Shown: piece after piece, positions 28,963 to 34,779 of the stretch
Position numbering within the stretch: the stretch's first letter is position 1
Layout of the letters: each line of letters starts with the position of its first letter
Source: Halomarina salina
GTDB taxonomy: Archaea > Halobacteriota > Halobacteria > Halobacteriales > Haloarculaceae
NCBI RefSeq assembly: GCF_023074835.1
Contig: NZ_JALLGW010000001.1
Location: forward strand, 558,001-622,000
Length of the DNA: 64,000 bases
Direction: 5' to 3'
Position numbers and translations under genes: made by a program
Notes under the pieces: generated by a model
What the model saw: only the letters and a program-made list of their open reading frames with translations
Database searches by the model: none
What the model was told of the DNA's origin: nothing

Positions 28963-30006
28963 TCAGTCGTCGGCCGTCGCTCCGGTCTCTCGGAGCGCTT
29001 CGGGAGGACCGCCCGGCAGTCGGTCGCGGTCGTGGGGCGCGAGGAAGTCGTGGTCCGGGCCGACGGCGACGATGCGCTTCGGGTTGACGTCCTCGTGCGT
29101 CGTGTAGTAGTGTTCGCGGATGTGCTCCATGTCCACCGTGTCGGCGACGCCGGGCAACTGGTACAGTTCGCACAGGTAGTTCCAGAGGTTCGGGTACTCG
29201 GCTATCTTCCGCACGTTGCACTTGAAGTGCGTGTGGTAGACGTCGTCGAAGCGGACGAGCGTCGTGAACATCGCGATATCGGCCTCCGTGAGCACGTCGC
29301 CCGCGAGGTAGCGCTGTTCGCCCAGCACCTCCTCCCAGCGGTCCAGCGCGTCGAACAGGTCGCCGACCGCGCGCTCGTAGGCCGCCTGCGTCTCGGCGAA
29401 TCCCGCCCGGTAGACGCCGTTGTTGATGGGGTCGTATATCTCCTCGATGGCCCGGTCCACGTCGTCGCGGTGGCCCTCGGGGTAGAGGTCGACGTCACGC
29501 GTCGCCAGGTCGTCGAACGCGACGTCGAGCATCCGCATGACCTCCTCGGACTCGTTGTTGACGATGGTCTCCTCCTGCTTGTCCCACAGCACCGGCACCG
29601 ACACGCGCCCGGTGTAGTTCGGGTCCGCCGCGACGTACGCCTCGCGCAGGTAGTCGAAGCCGTTGACCGAGTCCTCCGTACAGCCCTCCTTCTCGGGCGT
29701 GAACTGCCAGCCGTCGTCGTCGCGGTACGGGTCGACGACGTCCACCGAGACGGCGTCCTCCAGTCCCTTCAGCGCCCGCGTGACGAGCGTCCGGTGCGCC
29801 CACGGGCAGGCGTAGGAGACGTAGAGGTGGTACCGACCGGATTCGATGGGGAACTCGGCGTCCGGGTCGGGGGCCTCACCATCCTTCACCTGCTCGCCGC
29901 CGACCCAGTTCCTGAAGCTGGTCTCGTCGCGGTCGAACTCGCCGTCGTCGTCGGCCAGTTCGTACGCGTCGGTGCGCCACTCGCCGTCGACGAACATGTT
30001 GACCAT
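28963..30006 (-). CDS. Glutathione-transferase-like reductase (YqjG/ECM4 type)
   Basis: 347 residues from the ATG at 30006; the frame runs on through rpl10e on the opposite strand, which is shadow. YHLYVSYACPWAHRTLVTRAL carries the catalytic Cys (residue 67) of glutathionyl-hydroquinone reductases (Xi-class GST), followed by VPVLWDKQEETIVNNES (thiol-binding cis-Pro and ES) and the carboxy-terminal helical domain (LTEADIAMFTTLVRFDDVY). Haloarchaea use gamma-glutamylcysteine rather than glutathione, so this is probably its thiol. The enzyme would reduce thiol conjugates of quinones in the cytoplasm. Divergent from rpl10e. Confidence 0.88.
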   Translation of the reverse strand: MVNMFVDGEWRTDAYELADDDGEFDRDETSFRNWVGGEQVKDGEAPDPDAEFPIESGRYHLYVSYACPWAHRTLVTRALKGLEDAVSVDVVDPYRDDDGWQFTPEKEGCTEDSVNGFDYLREAYVAADPNYTGRVSVPVLWDKQEETIVNNESEEVMRMLDVAFDDLATRDVDLYPEGHRDDVDRAIEEIYDPINNGVYRAGFAETQAAYERAVGDLFDALDRWEEVLGEQRYLAGDVLTEADIAMFTTLVRFDDVYHTHFKCNVRKIAEYPNLWNYLCELYQLPGVADTVDMEHIREHYYTTHEDVNPKRIVAVGPDHDFLAPHDRDRLPGGPPEALRETGATADD

Positions 30007-30130: not shown

Positions 30131-30280
30131 CCGCGAGCGAACGCAGTGAGCGAGCGGGCCAAGGAGCCCCCGAAGGGGGCGACGCCGGTTTTTAGTCCAG
30201 GTTTTGCCAGCGAGCCGTGCGGTGACCGCCGAGCGCTAGCGAGGCGTGTCACCGCACCGCGAGCGCAGCAAAAAGTGGGT
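30131..30280. repeat. Structured repeat element, copy 1
   Basis: The unit starts CGAGCGAACGCAGTGAGCGA, passes a GCCCCC/GGGGGC hairpin and reaches GGTTTTTAGTCCAGGTTTT. Outer stem TTTTGC (30202-30207) pairs with GCAAAA (30268-30273); inner stem GTGCGGTGAC (30217-30226) pairs perfectly with GTCACCGCAC (30248-30257). The second copy at 34255-34424 keeps loop words but changes both stems with compensation. It lies between the divergent GST-like and rpl10e genes. It may be a non-coding RNA, a regulatory leader or a mobile repeat; no protein frame is supported. Confidence 0.75.
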
Positions 30281-30286
30281 TCGAAG

Positions 30287-30294
30287 GCTTTAAC
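30287..30294 (+). promoter_or_regulatory. Promoter of rpl10e
   Basis: GCTTTAAC lies about 31 bases before the rpl10e ATG and just after repeat element copy 1. A very short leader is expected. Confidence 0.45.
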
Positions 30295-30321
30295 CCCGAA
30301 CTGCTCCTCGCTACTCGTAAT

Positions 30322-30852
30322 ATGTCCGATAAACCTGCCTCGATGTACCGGGACATCGACAAGCCGCCATACACCCGGCGAGAGTACATTACGGGGATTC
30401 CCGGCTCGAAGATCGCCCAGCACAAGATGGGCGACATCGAGGCCGACCCCGACGACTACCCGGTCCAGATCAGCCTCATCGTCGAAGAGTCCGTCCAGCT
30501 TCGACACGGCTCGCTGGAGGCCTCGCGCCTCTCGGCGAACCGCCACCTCATCAAGGAGCTGGGCGAGAAGAACTACAAGATGATCCTCCGGAAGTTCCCC
30601 CACCAGGTGCTCCGGGAGAACAAGCAGGCGACCGGCGCGGGTGCGGACCGTGTCTCCGACGGGATGCGCCAGTCGTTCGGGAAGATCGTCGGCACCGCAG
30701 CGCGCGTCCACGAGGGCGAACAGCTGTTCACCGCGTGGTGTACGCCCGATCAGGCGCCCGTCGTCAAGGACGCCTTCCGCCGCGCGTACAACAAGATCAC
30801 GCCGCCGTGCCGCATCAAGGTCGAACGCGGCGAGGAACTCCTCGTCTCGTAG
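30322..30852 (+). CDS. rpl10e: 50S ribosomal protein L10e (uL16)
   Basis: 176 residues, the normal archaeal length. [31 protein letters not shown] and [43 protein letters not shown] are diagnostic of L10e, the archaeal/eukaryotic equivalent of L16, which sits next to the peptidyl-transferase centre and helps to position tRNA. The loop between these segments (residues about 95-125) is the functional P-site loop and is intact. It is monocistronic with its own promoter, as in other haloarchaea. Confidence 0.96.
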
Positions 30853-30992
30853 AGGCTGCGACACCTCCTCGCTCCCGGGCGCCGAAGGACCGCTGGCTTC
30901 GTACTACGACCCCACTCTCTCCCCGTTCTCCACCCGTCGAGCGGTCGCTCCGTTCCGAACCTCTTTGAGTGAGAGCGGCCAACTCCGGAGCG

Positions 30993-31145
30993 ATGGGAAG
31001 TCACGTGCGATCCGAGGAACTCGCTTCCGTCAGGTCAGAACGGAAACCGGAACCGCTCGGGACGTTTCTCTCCGGTCACTACGCAGGGGAAGCTATCGAA
31101 CCGGTCGAAGAGGCTCGACGACTTCGACGGCGCGAACACGAATGA
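30993..31145 (+). CDS. VapB-like antitoxin remnant (by position)
   Basis: 50 residues, too short to be found easily: MGSHVRSEELASVRSERKPE, then LGTFLSGHYAGEAIEPVEEA and a basic-acidic end. Its TGA stop overlaps the next ATG by four bases (ATGA), the coupling typical of toxin-antitoxin pairs, and the next frame begins like a PIN-domain toxin. The sequence has the charged helix-rich look of small haloarchaeal antitoxins, but I cannot assign an AbrB or RHH fold. If the toxin is lost it may be kept by chance or act on other loci. Confidence 0.45.
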   Translation: MGSHVRSEELASVRSERKPEPLGTFLSGHYAGEAIEPVEEARRLRRREHE

Positions 31146-31189
31146 GGCTCGTCGTCGACACGGACGTCCTCGTCACGGTGCTCGTGTAG
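31142..31189 (+). pseudogene. Truncated PIN-domain (VapC-like) toxin, 15 codons left
   Basis: MRLVVDTDVLVTVLV then a stop. This is exactly the first strand and catalytic-Asp segment of PIN-domain RNases (hydrophobic run, DT, hydrophobic run), but about 110 residues of the normal protein are missing. The start overlaps the antitoxin-like gene and the stop directly abuts the ATG of the ATP-grasp gene (TAG ATG), as if a deletion had fused the locus to that gene. Too short to be active. Chance similarity is possible. Confidence 0.5.
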
Positions 31190-32056
31190 ATGCTCCGCCT
31201 CGCAGTCTGCACCGATGCAGAGACCCTCGCCCGTATCCGCGACCCGCTGGCCGAGCGAGATATCCAGGTCGAGTACGTCCGGCCCGACGAGCGGACGTTC
31301 GCGCTCGGCGACGACCCGACCGACCTCGGCGCGTTCGACGTGGGACTGGTCTACCCCACTCGACTCGCGGAGGGTGGCGTCGTCGACGCGGTGCTCGACG
31401 TACCGTGGGTGAACGACCGCGAGGCGGTGCTGCGCTCCCGGCACAAGGGTGAGGCGCTGGCCCGCCTCGCTCGCGCCGGGGTGTCCGTTCCCGAGTCGGT
31501 GGTCGTCTCGAACCCGACCGACGACGGAGCGCTCCGCGAGGCGTTCGAGCGGTTCGACGCTCCCGTCGTGGTCAAGCCGAACTCGACGACGCGGGGGACG
31601 GGCGTCACGAAAGTCCACGACGTGGACTCCTTCCTCGGCGTCACCGACTACCTCTCGCTGGTCCACGACTACCGCGCGACCGGCGACAAGTCCTTTCTCG
31701 TCCAGGAGTACCTGCCCGATGCGACCGACTACCGGGCGATGGTGGTCGACGGCGACTGCGTCGGCGCGGTCGAACGTCGCCTGCCCGACGAGGCACGCGA
31801 GGCGGGACAGTGGAAGCACAACGTCCACCGGGGGGCGCGGGCCGAGGGCGTCTCGCTCCCCGACGACCTGCGACGGGTCGCTGAGGACGCCGCGGCGGCG
31901 CTCGACGTGGACTATCTCGGCGTGGACCTCCTCGTGACCGACGACCGGGTCGTCGTCGGCGAGACGAACGCCCGGCCGACCGTCGACGACGAGACGAAGT
32001 ACGACGACGGGTTCTACGACGACCTCGCGGCGCTGGTTCGCTCGCGCGTGACGTGA
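31190..32056 (+). CDS. RimK-like ATP-grasp ligase
   Basis: 288 residues. An amino-terminal pre-ATP-grasp domain (LRLAVCTDAETLARIRDPLAERDIQV) leads to the ATP-grasp core: RSRHKGEALARLARAGVSVPESVVV, VVKPNSTTRGTGVTKV (P-loop-like Lys), FLVQEYLPD and VVVGETNARPTVDD (metal-binding Glu and Asn). This is closest to RimK/LysX-type enzymes that join an amino acid to a carboxylate through an acyl phosphate. The substrate is unknown; RimK itself adds Glu to ribosomal protein S6 in bacteria. No ATP-dependent zinc protease partner lies beside it. The ATG abuts the stop of the truncated PIN gene, so it may be expressed from the toxin-antitoxin promoter. Confidence 0.8.
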   Translation: MLRLAVCTDAETLARIRDPLAERDIQVEYVRPDERTFALGDDPTDLGAFDVGLVYPTRLAEGGVVDAVLDVPWVNDREAVLRSRHKGEALARLARAGVSVPESVVVSNPTDDGALREAFERFDAPVVVKPNSTTRGTGVTKVHDVDSFLGVTDYLSLVHDYRATGDKSFLVQEYLPDATDYRAMVVDGDCVGAVERRLPDEAREAGQWKHNVHRGARAEGVSLPDDLRRVAEDAAAALDVDYLGVDLLVTDDRVVVGETNARPTVDDETKYDDGFYDDLAALVRSRVT

Positions 32057-32084
32057 AGCGGTCTCGGGTCGACGACCGCGAGCG

Positions 32085-32975
32085 TCAGCCCTCGACGACG
32101 CCGACGTAGAGCAACAGCAGCGCGAACAGTCCGACGACGGCGGCGAGGTACCAGCCGTAGACGCCGCCAGTGAGCACGACAGCCGCGCCACAGACTACGA
32201 GCAGGCAGAAACCGAGCGCACTCGCGGCGAGTCGGACCTGCGGGTTCGACCGCCGACCGCCGGGGTCGGGGTCGTCGGGGTCGGTGGCAGTGGCGTCGAA
32301 GACGGCCGCCGCGTCGGCCGCGTGTTCGGTCGGCACCGGAATCCAGCGTGGGTTCGAGAGCGACCCGGGACGGCGTGGGTAGCGCAACCGGAACACCACG
32401 AACGGGCCGAGCCGAGTACGTTCGTACCCCGAGAACCCGTCGAACGACTGCGCGACGGACGCCGGTTCGACGACGTACGTCCGGCTCGACGGGTCGAGCC
32501 TGGCCTCGGTGGAGACGAAAGCGACGACGACCGCCGCACCGAACCCGACGGCGATGAGCGCCGGGGCAGCCGGGAACCACAGGTACGCCGCGATGGCCAC
32601 GACGAGCGCGCCAGGTGTGGCGACGGCGAACCGGGAGCGGCGTGTCGACGGGTGACGACGGCGCTCCAGCCTACGCACCTCGGTGTCGAAGAGGTACAGC
32701 GCGCCGACTGGCGAGAGGACGACGCGGAGCGTTCCGAACGCGACTGCGAGGACGAACACGACTAACGCGCCGGGAGAGAGACCACCGGTGAGGACCGACC
32801 CCAGTATCGCGAGCGTCGCCAGCGCGACCAGGACGACGACCGTCGCGGCGCTCGCCAGCGCGGTCCGGACGAGCGCGACCCACCGCAGCCAGCGTACCGT
32901 CGTCGGGTCGTACTGCCACTCGACGGGCGGTGGCGTCGACGTAGCTGGAGGGTCGTCCGTCCGGGGGGAGGGCAT
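32085..32975 (-). CDS. Multi-pass membrane protein, unknown function
   Basis: 296 residues from the ATG at 32975; a GTG just before it is the alternative. About six membrane segments in three pairs (about 38-62 and 68-90; 118-135 and 138-155; 250-268 and 272-293). A soluble region of about 90 residues between pairs 2 and 3 (SSRTYVVEPASVAQSFDGFSGYERTRLGPFVVFRLRYP) looks like a beta-rich domain resembling a PH-like fold. No signature motif. Convergent with the ATP-grasp gene, 28 bases apart. Likely conserved in haloarchaea. Confidence 0.65.
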   Translation of the reverse strand: MPSPRTDDPPATSTPPPVEWQYDPTTVRWLRWVALVRTALASAATVVVLVALATLAILGSVLTGGLSPGALVVFVLAVAFGTLRVVLSPVGALYLFDTEVRRLERRRHPSTRRSRFAVATPGALVVAIAAYLWFPAAPALIAVGFGAAVVVAFVSTEARLDPSSRTYVVEPASVAQSFDGFSGYERTRLGPFVVFRLRYPRRPGSLSNPRWIPVPTEHAADAAAVFDATATDPDDPDPGGRRSNPQVRLAASALGFCLLVVCGAAVVLTGGVYGWYLAAVVGLFALLLLYVGVVEG

Positions 32976-33013
32976 CACCGGTGGTTAGCAGGACGACACG
33001 AAAAGCGTCGGGG

Positions 33014-34141
33014 TCAGCGCCACCACTCGGTGCGGCGCTCGGCGGCGGAGGTCGTCTCCCGGAGCGGTTCGGGGTACTCCGCGTCGCTATCGAGGCTCAG
33101 GCCGCGGCCGACCCACCGGGCGACGTGCCAGGCGACGGCCTCGGTGTCGAGGTTCGCGATGGTGACCTCCAGTTTCGAGTACGTCTCCAGTCGGCCGTCG
33201 CCGTCGGGGTCGTACCCCTCCACCCGACCGCACGACCCACGGCGGGTCCCACACTGCAGGTCGTCCGCGAACCGGACCACGACGTCCGCCCGGCCGGGGT
33301 CGTCGACCCGGACGAACGAGACGTTCTCGGGGACGGTCCCCTCGGCGCCGTCCTCGAAGTAGCCGAGTGCGGCGGCCACCTGGCGCTCGGTCGCCTGCCG
33401 GTCGTCGGCGTCGCCGTAGTCGACGTACACCGAGAGCGTCGAGTGGTTCCACGCGAGTTCGCGGTCGGTCGCGTCGGTCTTCGGCTGGGTCGTGAGCATC
33501 GTCTCGCCCGCCATCACCTCGCTGGGTTCGTCGTCGTGGCCGAGTCCCAGCGTGTGACCGAGTTCGTGTTCGAGGACGAGCGTCGTCGAGTTCGCGTCGA
33601 AGCCCGTCTTGATGCGCACGACTGCGGGCCGGTCGACCGGACCGCGGGTGATGTACGGCGCACAGCCAGCGACGTGCTGTTCGCGCCCGCAGTCGCGGAT
33701 GTCGTCGACGAACTGCACCACGAGGTCCGCGTCGCTGGTGTCGCTATCCTCGTCCAGCAGTCGGTAGTCGACGGCGTAGCCCGCGTAGTGGCGCGAGTTC
33801 GCCTCCCAGAAGTCGAGCGCGTCGCGGACGGCCGGGCGGACGTCGCGGCCGGCCGAGACGTTCGCGTCGTCGACGGCGACGGTCAGCGTCTCCTCGTCGT
33901 ACGGGTTGTCGACGGCGGGGACGGGCGTCGACCCGTCGTTCCACGCGGCGTCCCGCACGTCCCGTTCCTCGCCGTCGCCGTCGGAGCCGTCGTCCGGCGT
34001 CGAGCCGGTTCGCGGCGGTTGGGTGGCGTCACCGGGCGTCTCCACGTCACCCTCGCCCGGTTCGGGGAGGGAGACGGGAGCCGAACAGCCCGCGACGACG
34101 ATACACAGGAGGACGGCGAGAACGGCGACCCGTGTTCTCAT
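33014..34141 (-). CDS. Matrixin-like zinc metalloprotease lipoprotein, tandem domain
   Basis: 375 residues. A lipobox signal (LLCIVVAGC, Cys19) and an acidic linker are followed by a metzincin domain whose zinc site HELGHTLGLGH (residues 192-202) is complete; the Met-turn is likely EVM near residue 209. A second copy of the domain follows (about 235-360): FADDLQCGTRRGSCGRVEGY parallels DDIRDCGREQHVAGCAPYI, but its metal motif has decayed to HVARWVGRGLS. The first copy should be an extracellular lipid-anchored protease, the second an inactive copy. Target unknown. The gene is transcribed alone; upstream lie the structured repeat and rnpB. Confidence 0.8.
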   Translation of the reverse strand: MRTRVAVLAVLLCIVVAGCSAPVSLPEPGEGDVETPGDATQPPRTGSTPDDGSDGDGEERDVRDAAWNDGSTPVPAVDNPYDEETLTVAVDDANVSAGRDVRPAVRDALDFWEANSRHYAGYAVDYRLLDEDSDTSDADLVVQFVDDIRDCGREQHVAGCAPYITRGPVDRPAVVRIKTGFDANSTTLVLEHELGHTLGLGHDDEPSEVMAGETMLTTQPKTDATDRELAWNHSTLSVYVDYGDADDRQATERQVAAALGYFEDGAEGTVPENVSFVRVDDPGRADVVVRFADDLQCGTRRGSCGRVEGYDPDGDGRLETYSKLEVTIANLDTEAVAWHVARWVGRGLSLDSDAEYPEPLRETTSAAERRTEWWR

Positions 34142-34254
34142 CTACACCGTATACAGGTAGGAACGGGATGACCCTTGTGGCCTGAAGGTTAGTCCGGATG
34201 ACGTGTCGGAGACCGGGCGACGAGGCAGGGCAGCGGTATCACCAGCGCACTCGG

Positions 34255-34424
34255 TGCGAGCGAACGAAGTGAGCGAGCGGGCCACGGAACCTTCGAGGAC
34301 GCGAGTGAAACGAGCGTTCGAGGAGGTGACTCCGGTTTTTAGTCCAGGTTTTACCAGTGAGTCGGCTGGTGGCCGCCGGGCAACGTGAGGCGTGCTACCA
34401 GCCCGCGAGCGCAGTAAAACGTGG
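34255..34424. repeat. Structured repeat element, copy 2
   Basis: It starts CGAGCGAACGAAGTGAGCGA and again reaches GGTTTTTAGTCCAGGTTTT. Outer stem TTTTAC (34349-34354) pairs with GTAAAA (34414-34419); inner stem GGCTGGT (34364-34370) pairs with ACCAGCC (34397-34403). Compared with copy 1 the outer G-C pair has become A-T and the inner stem is rewritten, while GAGGCGTG and GCGAGCGCAG are unchanged. On the minus strand it begins directly at the 3' end of rnpB. It could be a 3' processing or terminator structure or an inserted repeat. Confidence 0.75.
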
Positions 34425-34425
34425 C

Positions 34426-34779
34426 GGGCTGCGAGCCGTAAGCCCCCTTCTGTTCTGACCGGCATTCGGCTGAGCGCCCGCGACAGGCCGACCGTGCTGG
34501 TCGTCTGCCGGGCTACCTTGACGTCGCGGGCTTGCACCGGCGAGGGTTCGCCGTTCCATCCGTTCTCTCCGTTCTTCCCTCGGCGGGTCGACTCGCTTCC
34601 CTCGCGGGTCGCTTCTCGCGCCTCATGGGTCCCGGAGAGGGGTCTCGTTTCTGTTCCATAGCCGACGGTCTCCCGTCCCGGGCGTGTGCCCGGTCGCCTG
34701 CCCGGCCGGTGGGGGGACTTTCCTCGTTTGCGTCACGTGGCGAACCACGCGCGCCACGGTGGCCGGTCACTCGCTGCCC
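34426..34779 (-). ncRNA. rnpB: RNase P RNA
   Basis: About 354 bases. Read on the minus strand, CR-I GAGGAAAGTCCCCCCAC (near 34709-34725), CR-IV CGGTGCAAGCCC (34528-34539) and CR-V AACAGAAGGGGGCTTAC (34438-34454) are all present. P1 closes as GGGCAGCGAG at the 5' end with CTCGCAGCCC at the 3' end (one A-A mismatch), which sets the ends. It is the catalytic RNA that cuts 5' leaders from tRNA precursors, in archaea of type A. It follows the nicotinate phosphoribosyltransferase gene by 46 bases but a CTTAGG box at about 34805 may be its own promoter. Protein-like frames across it are shadows. Confidence 0.92.

Follow-up and report, generated by a model that had tools for sequence, protein, structure and literature searches.

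The 64,000-nucleotide stretch of the Halomarina salina genome analyzed here (contig NZ_JALLGW010000001.1, positions 558,001 to 622,000 of the forward strand; the window) contains two copies of a structured repeat, one upstream of an rpl10e-like gene and the other beside rnpB, the gene for RNase P RNA. An earlier note, made from the letters of the DNA, had described two look-alike elements with shared sequence blocks at these positions, and alignment together with direct reading bears this out. We refined the limits of the conserved core to 30189-30278 and 34336-34424, with two additional hairpins upstream of each core. A dinucleotide near the 5' end of each core (NN) pairs with a dinucleotide that forms its very 3' end (N'N'). 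The elements and their neighbours, in window positions, are as follows.

30189-30278, plus strand: core element, copy 1, TTTTTAGT-CC-AGGTTTTGC-(stem)-GCAAAAAGT-GG; NN at 30197-30198 pairs with N'N' at 30277-30278.
34336-34424, plus strand: core element, copy 2, TTTTTAGT-CC-AGGTTTTAC-(stem)-GTAAAACGT-GG; NN at 34344-34345 pairs with N'N' at 34423-34424.
30131-30157, plus strand: upstream hairpin of copy 1, CCGCGAGCGAACGCAGTGAGCGAGCGG, read directly; in this genome's type-4 copies it recurs along with the core, over ~165 nt.
30166-30180, plus strand: second hairpin of copy 1, GCCCCC-GAA-GGGGGC, the same in loci L004 and L005.
34254-34281, plus strand: upstream hairpin of copy 2, GTGCGAGCGAACGAAGTGAGCGAGCGGG.
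34286-34331, plus strand: second hairpin of copy 2, AACCTTCGAGGACGCGAG...GTTCGAGGAGGTGACT.
34427-34778, minus strand: rnpB, archaeal RNase P RNA (Rfam RF00373, 141.9 bits), with its 3' end 2 nt from N'N' of copy 2.
30322-30852, plus strand: open reading frame (ORF) of 176 amino acids, start codon 43 nt past the end of copy 1, rpl10e-like, the name being that given by the earlier reader.
28963-30006, minus strand: glutathione-S-transferase-like ORF on the opposite flank of copy 1, transcribed away from it, with its start read as the ATG at 30006.
33014-34141, minus strand: metalloprotease-like ORF of 375 amino acids with the motif HELGHTLGLGH; in the minus-strand direction it lies downstream of copy 2.

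The rewriting of the stems between the two copies is correct as first quoted, both for the outer stem (TTTTGC/GCAAAA against TTTTAC/GTAAAA) and for the inner stem (GGCTGGT/ACCAGCC in one copy). One pair had been overlooked: CC, directly 5' of AGG, pairs with GG, the last two letters of the core. As proposed, divergent genes flank copy 1, near the rpl10e promoter; copy 2 ends 2 nt from the rnpB 3' end at 34427. The 17-mer TTTTTAGTCCAGGTTTT has two matches in the window at up to 3 mismatches, compared with 0.00 in dinucleotide shuffles. Relative to such shuffles, the fold energy of the plus strand gave z values of -4.6 (copy 1) and -3.2 (copy 2), and that of the minus strand was weaker (-3.6 and -0.9, respectively). 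An Rfam search at gathering and permissive thresholds detected rnpB and returned no match for either element.

At up to 2 mismatches the 17-mer has nine matches in this genome and its reversed control has none. All nine strict copies obey a single scheme, TTTTTAGT-NN-AGG-TTTTT-(variable stem)-AAAAA-x-GT-N'N', wherein NN is CC, GC or GG and N'N' is always its complement. The complement was likewise present in 33/33 haloarchaeal copies gathered from this genome and related ones with the 5' motif as the sole criterion. A scan for TTTTTAGTNNAGGTTTTT over 85,000 species, in which the partner dinucleotide was not used for selection, yielded at least 116 stretches. Among the matches listed, 56 occurrences are archaeal, and AAAA[ACG]GT follows within 92 nt in 48 of them; the complement of NN is present at 46 of these 48 sites, with 11 types of NN, and the same non-complementary dinucleotide at none. 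The 63 bacterial occurrences among the matches listed include the 3' motif in 6 cases and a complementary N'N' in 0; they are chance matches and serve as an internal negative control.

Larger alignments extend this pattern to the stems. NN and N'N' are paired in 54/54 sequences of the alignment used for our covariance model, with 20 two-sided changes, although the partner was partly a selection criterion there; in the same alignment the column pair beside the T-tract flips from G-C to C-G. In 12 long-type copies, two-sided compensatory changes occur in 13/26 pairs, each pair is broken or gapped in at most one sequence, and the one-sided changes are G-U pairs on the plus strand. Among 70 copies folded with RNA parameters, the plus strand gave the better fold in 90%, and with DNA parameters it did so in 64/67. 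The T and A tracts are invariant in the core, and the inner stem is of several types with purine-rich internal loops. The proposal that the folded form is what is kept is thus strongly supported by many further copies, preferentially for the plus strand.

The search of haloarchaeal genomes with a covariance model, suggested as a check by the earlier note, was carried out with the 54-sequence model at E <= 0.01, where E-values are rough. The model matched in 176/195 sampled Halobacteriales genomes, representing 60/67 genera. Copy numbers from the model are lower bounds, as the best 25 candidates were scored per genome and many genomes reach 25; the Halomarina salina genome holds nine strict copies and ~26 by the model. 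Halococcus (genus g25) is copy-rich, and several 98-99% complete Halobacteriales genomes had 0 model matches. Two 99%-complete haloarchaeal genomes, G111 and G190, have 0 copies and hardly any candidates, and the congeners of G111 in genus g48 (G162 and G184) have 20 and 13, respectively; G111 and its congeners therefore offer a good contrast for finding a mover.

Beyond Halococcus, Halomarina and Halorientalis, the carriers include ANME-1/Methanophagales, Micrarchaeota, Diapherotrites, Aenigmatarchaeota, Nanoarchaeota, Woesearchaeota and one metagenome-assembled genome (MAG) of Nitrosotalea (Thaumarchaeota). The ANME-1-type archaea, Micrarchaeota, other DPANN archaea and the Nitrosotalea MAG carry exact short forms, and the minimal forms, in AT-rich archaea, are 37 nt long. 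A strict short-form pattern was found in 38/393 genomes of the phylum of the ANME-type family (reversed control, 0), 37 of them in family f22, which is probably ANME-1 as judged from named loci, with up to 24 short-form places per genome. Identical 35-nt versions recur at many sites in this family, and NN is tied to the loop: CA occurs with ACCGAAGGT, and AA with GCTTGC or GCGAAGC.

The position of the core relative to genes was assessed with ORFs of at least 70 codons that had third-position GC support; the gene calls are heuristic and the statistics come from the loci. The distance from N'N' to the stop codon of the right-hand gene is between -2 and +7 nt in 38/65 haloarchaeal copies, compared with a mean of 0.34 and a maximum of 2 in 100 draws of random positions from these loci; the TTTTT side is flush with a stop codon in 0/65. 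Among the remaining copies with a recognised neighbour, most have their end 39-44 nt ahead of a start codon (L001, L021, L024, L031, L036, L084, L318 and one in L381); in leaderless haloarchaeal genes, the promoter has its upstream edge at about this distance from the start. The core also adjoins tRNA 3' ends (L086, L104), a tRNA 5' end (L080) and the rnpB 3' end. This flush precision is the most unusual feature of the element, and neither plain transposition nor plain termination fully predicts it.

We compared orthologous sites in eight Halomarina genomes through gene-flank searches, after which the sites were read. At the rpl10e site the core is present in 7/8 genomes and one MAG is empty; the copy of G001 is of a different internal (subfamily) type from those of its congeners, and that of G002 is broken up by another insert. 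The glnA site is empty in 3/8 genomes. At a convergent gene pair in Halococcus, G038 has a long core-containing block where G105, G134, G120 and G112 have a short core-free gap. Type-4 copies within the Halomarina salina genome are 80-90% alike across ~165 nt, ending at N'N'. Between L295 and L314 (identical in place to L006 and L009) the similarity of 93% is confined to the core, and the upstream hairpins are unrelated. Presence and absence, type swapping, similarity within a genome and the recurrent 35-nt versions together suggest a repeat that is copied about. Of the marks of a MITE, no target duplication was visible at the compared Halomarina and Halococcus sites, and no transposon with matching ends was found.

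A separate arrangement was seen in L025 (reverse strand ~1396-1640, genome G015), where the last ~53 bp of a siroheme-decarboxylase-like gene, stop codon included, flank the element as direct repeats, one on each side, which looks as though the incoming element had duplicated the gene end.

The Micrarchaeota place the same hairpin inside genes. Fourteen strict copies were found in 7/196 sampled genomes of this phylum, all with a complementary N'N', and most of them read as lying inside or against stable RNA genes. In two tRNA-Gly genes (L403/L058 and L407) the Rfam tRNA model spans the copy, and ARAGORN finds a tRNA once it is removed. Removal likewise allowed ARAGORN to recover tRNA-Asp (L085, a separate locus), tRNA-Arg (L405/L145) and tRNA-Ala (L398/L122), the last with an intron of ~0.4 kb that begins with the element. 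In 16S rRNA (L402, 810-2425) the rRNA model spans the copy, and the core sits in a short intron after GGCGAAA; by eye, GGCG-AAA-ACAC...GTGT-CGCT-GAA reads as a full bulge-helix-bulge (BHB), and removal gives GGCGAAAGCG. The other Micrarchaeota copies mostly read, again by eye, as insertions in the D-loop or T-loop of tRNAs. These copies are predicted BHB introns, given that the stable RNA gene is intact after removal. Two more core-like copies were seen past the 3' end of tRNA-Ala in L122/L398.

Taken together, the best explanation, which we hold with about even confidence, is that the two elements belong to a new archaea-wide family of very small, transposase-free, strand-specific mobile hairpin repeats with tolerated or useful T-tracts. 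Mobility of a strand-specific hairpin would explain the structure, the gain and loss, the intron copies and the patchy spread. The core is a strand-specific hairpin that has an A/T lower stem and an outer NN/N'N' pair, the 3' half of which forms the element's own end; the copies analyzed here are interspersed, come and go at orthologous sites, fall into recurring subfamilies and stop exactly at N'N'. The pairing could mark this end in the manner of the guide and cleavage sites of IS200/IS605 and REP elements, and the element may move as single-stranded nucleic acid through a host or trans-acting enzyme. It would come to rest flush with boundaries, that is, at the 3' ends of protein and stable-RNA genes, at the upstream edges of promoters, or inside tRNA and rRNA genes, from which it could be removed by splicing as part of a BHB intron. 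The T-tracts on both strands may give the element a built-in archaeal terminator that works in both directions, in which case a copy landing next to a gene end would be harmless or useful and hence kept. The repeats probably help to mark transcription boundaries, a function made plausible by the T stretches that terminate haloarchaeal transcription and by the T-tracts that the core offers on both strands at gene ends.

Several observations weigh against mobility. No mobilising enzyme was found: Y1 transposase (PF01797) had no match in G038, a 99%-complete genome with more than 25 copies, nor in G002, G004, G007 and several Micrarchaeota, although an ancient loss of this enzyme may have occurred in the carriers. 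In haloarchaea we found no recent, almost identical copies whose empty sites are clean at the level of single bases; between species the intergenic regions are too diverged. Long persistence at one site (rpl10e, 7/8) with compensatory change also fits a host function, and ordinary transposition leaves the precise flush placement unexplained.

The repeat family, present in most sampled haloarchaeal genomes and in ANME-1-type archaea, DPANN archaea and a Thaumarchaeota MAG, and unmistakable by its covarying end, seems to have escaped description. The core in an archaeal context was not found in the open-access literature, where archaeal REP, SMR/PATE and tRNA intron mobility yielded PMC3119063 and general papers; the family apparently is undescribed, and the PATEs and SMRs of PMC3119063 are set apart from it by their descriptions, not by sequence tables. 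If mobile, it is a widespread archaeal selfish element; if it has a function, it represents a signal for transcription boundaries in archaea. The copies in tRNA and 16S introns provide a direct handle on the origin of archaeal introns.

A host-encoded bidirectional transcription terminator or insulator is a possible alternative that we consider unlikely. Here TTTTTAGTNNAGGTTTTT on the plus strand and N'N'AC-TTTTT on the minus strand would stop polymerase coming from either side, and the hairpin would keep the tracts in register. T stretches halt archaeal RNA polymerase, and in Haloferax volcanii 95% termination was obtained in vivo with an inserted T5C (PMC7237163). The flush sites after stop codons, rnpB and tRNAs and before promoters are where such a signal is needed, the tracts are invariant, and terminator-like hairpins lie upstream of the first plus-strand T-tract. 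Intrinsic archaeal terminators also carry T5 tracts close behind gene 3' ends on both strands, but they lack the fixed AGT-NN-AGG...GT-N'N' frame with its covariation, and a terminator would need neither the covarying end dinucleotide nor the fixed AGT/AGG/GT. Moreover, the hairpin order is T-stem-A, the opposite of the usual A-stem-T, the core is rare or missing in many healthy relatives, and copies within tRNA and 16S genes would do harm.

Two further explanations start from the intron copies. The first, which we regard as doubtful, is an archaeal 'introner': a tiny hairpin that needs no dedicated transposase, spreads via single-stranded DNA or RNA, gives rise to BHB introns where it lands in tRNA and rRNA genes, and elsewhere settles at transcript ends, with its own T-tracts as a new terminator. 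If true, this would account for the origin of tRNA and rRNA introns in archaea. The second, a mobile archaeal intron, appears still less probable to us. The core would be the centre of a BHB intron, and the excised (circular) intron would reverse-splice into transcripts that are then reverse transcribed, so that the haloarchaeal gene-end copies would be insertions into untranslated transcript ends. The copies verified in tRNA-Gly, -Ala, -Asp and -Arg and in 16S rRNA, the last reading as a full BHB, agree with this, as does the sense orientation to the abutting gene at stop-codon, rnpB and tRNA 3' sites. However, haloarchaeal copies lie outside genes, a sense orientation is not evident upstream of promoters, and folding favours the plus strand whereas the intron RNA would be the minus strand. 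The Micrarchaeota copies resemble known BHB introns in occupying canonical and T-loop positions in tRNAs as well as 16S rRNA; those introns are defined by the splice motif, whereas the feature shared here, in different genes and phyla and also at sites outside introns, is a single internal hairpin.

It is very unlikely that the elements are degenerate ends of IS200/IS605 transposons, as are the PATEs of Haloquadratum walsbyi. Like the core, PATEs are short, transposase-free, palindromic (near their termini) and heterogeneous in sequence, show no obvious target duplication, and are favoured targets of smaller repeats (PMC3119063). TTCAC often precedes the upstream hairpins, and many of the TnpB right ends that were read also finish in TTCAC. 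Yet PATE ends derive from IS605 TnpA/TnpB transposons, and the core, with its covarying terminal dinucleotide, is not located at TnpB ends and occurs in genomes where Y1 transposase is absent. Identity to a known transposon end, named in advance as a finding that would speak against the earlier proposal, was not seen: the core occurs in 0/24 TnpB 3' flanks, many of which end in GTAGTTCAC. A search of 40 TnpA/TnpB loci with the model gave four significant hits, and the three in L381 that were inspected are intergenic. At L381, the one TnpB locus with three hits, a sufS-like and a sufU-like gene enclose two of the copies; a start codon follows 44 nt after the second, so the placement is ordinary. 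No composite transposon built on the core was seen.

The SMRs of Haloquadratum share with the core a size of ~80-110 bp, the absence of a transposase, a mobilisation that is unknown and a patchy distribution (PMC3119063). They differ in having terminal inverted repeats unrelated to transposons and in targeting other mobile elements, whereas the core abuts host genes.

A class of structured non-coding RNA genes with its own function, one half of what the earlier note had proposed, is highly improbable and found no support as a stand-alone class: the extensive covariation, the plus-strand preference and the G-U pairs retained on that strand would fit it, but there is no Rfam match, positions are fixed by neighbouring genes, no consistent promoter was seen, types are swapped at one locus, and AT-rich archaea carry the minimal forms. 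The other half of that proposal, a non-autonomous mobile hairpin, is the best fit.

As a hairpin repeat, the core invites comparison with bacterial counterparts. REP/BIME sequences, which are associated with RAYT (TnpA-REP), are intergenic hairpin repeats that often follow stop codons; some form inverted pairs, and the foot of the hairpin carries a short conserved sequence. The core is likewise an interspersed extragenic palindromic repeat between genes and often after stop codons. It differs in being archaeal, in its different and longer conserved part, and in that no RAYT-like Y1 protein was found in several copy-rich genomes.

Paired and tandem arrangements occur in ANME-1-type archaea. In L095, L103, L111 and L154, an inverted, slightly degenerate second copy (ACACTTTTTC...GAAAACCTGTGCTAAAAG) precedes the core, so that the two stand head to head in a BIME-like manner. 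Such pairs are flanked in ANME-1-type contigs by further hairpin repeats (AAAGCTTTTC...GAAAAGCTTTACCAA). One ANME-type genome (G473:C78:1734-1851) has a tandem of three short-form cores with a 43-nt period.

Extrachromosomal DNA was also searched. IMG/VR gave six exact matches, three of them chance and three in near-identical contigs that contain the full element with its partner. These three viral contigs (L357, L359 and L360; 39, 47 and 31 kb, respectively, GC ~0.41) suggest that archaeal viruses may transport the core. The plasmid collection gave a single, weak match, in Natronococcus occultus.

Other small repeats are associated with the core. Insert X (CATTGYGAGACGC...GCGTCTCRCAGGCTCCCAG...CTGGGAG) was seen in L201, L226, L248, L256, L277, L333 and L336, and insert Y (GCCAGAAATC...GATTTCTGGC-TGCTAACC-AGAACGG...CCGTTCTGGTGAT) in L222, L215, L327 and L332. 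Both are ~55-60 nt long with two hairpins each, and lie inside or next to the core in independent genomes. They strike at or near GTCC/AG, with X often precisely between GTCC and AG. These nested inserts are closer to SMRs than the core is, and hit the core as SMRs hit PATE palindromes. In Halococcus, a second conserved module, CCTGGTGGATGAAGGGCGAG-(hairpin)-CGAGGGCTTCGGCGGTGCTGTGCGG, again with purine-rich internal loops, lies ~100-200 nt upstream of the core (L026, L032, L036, L039-L043, L050, L065, L072, L084, L118, L150 and L155).

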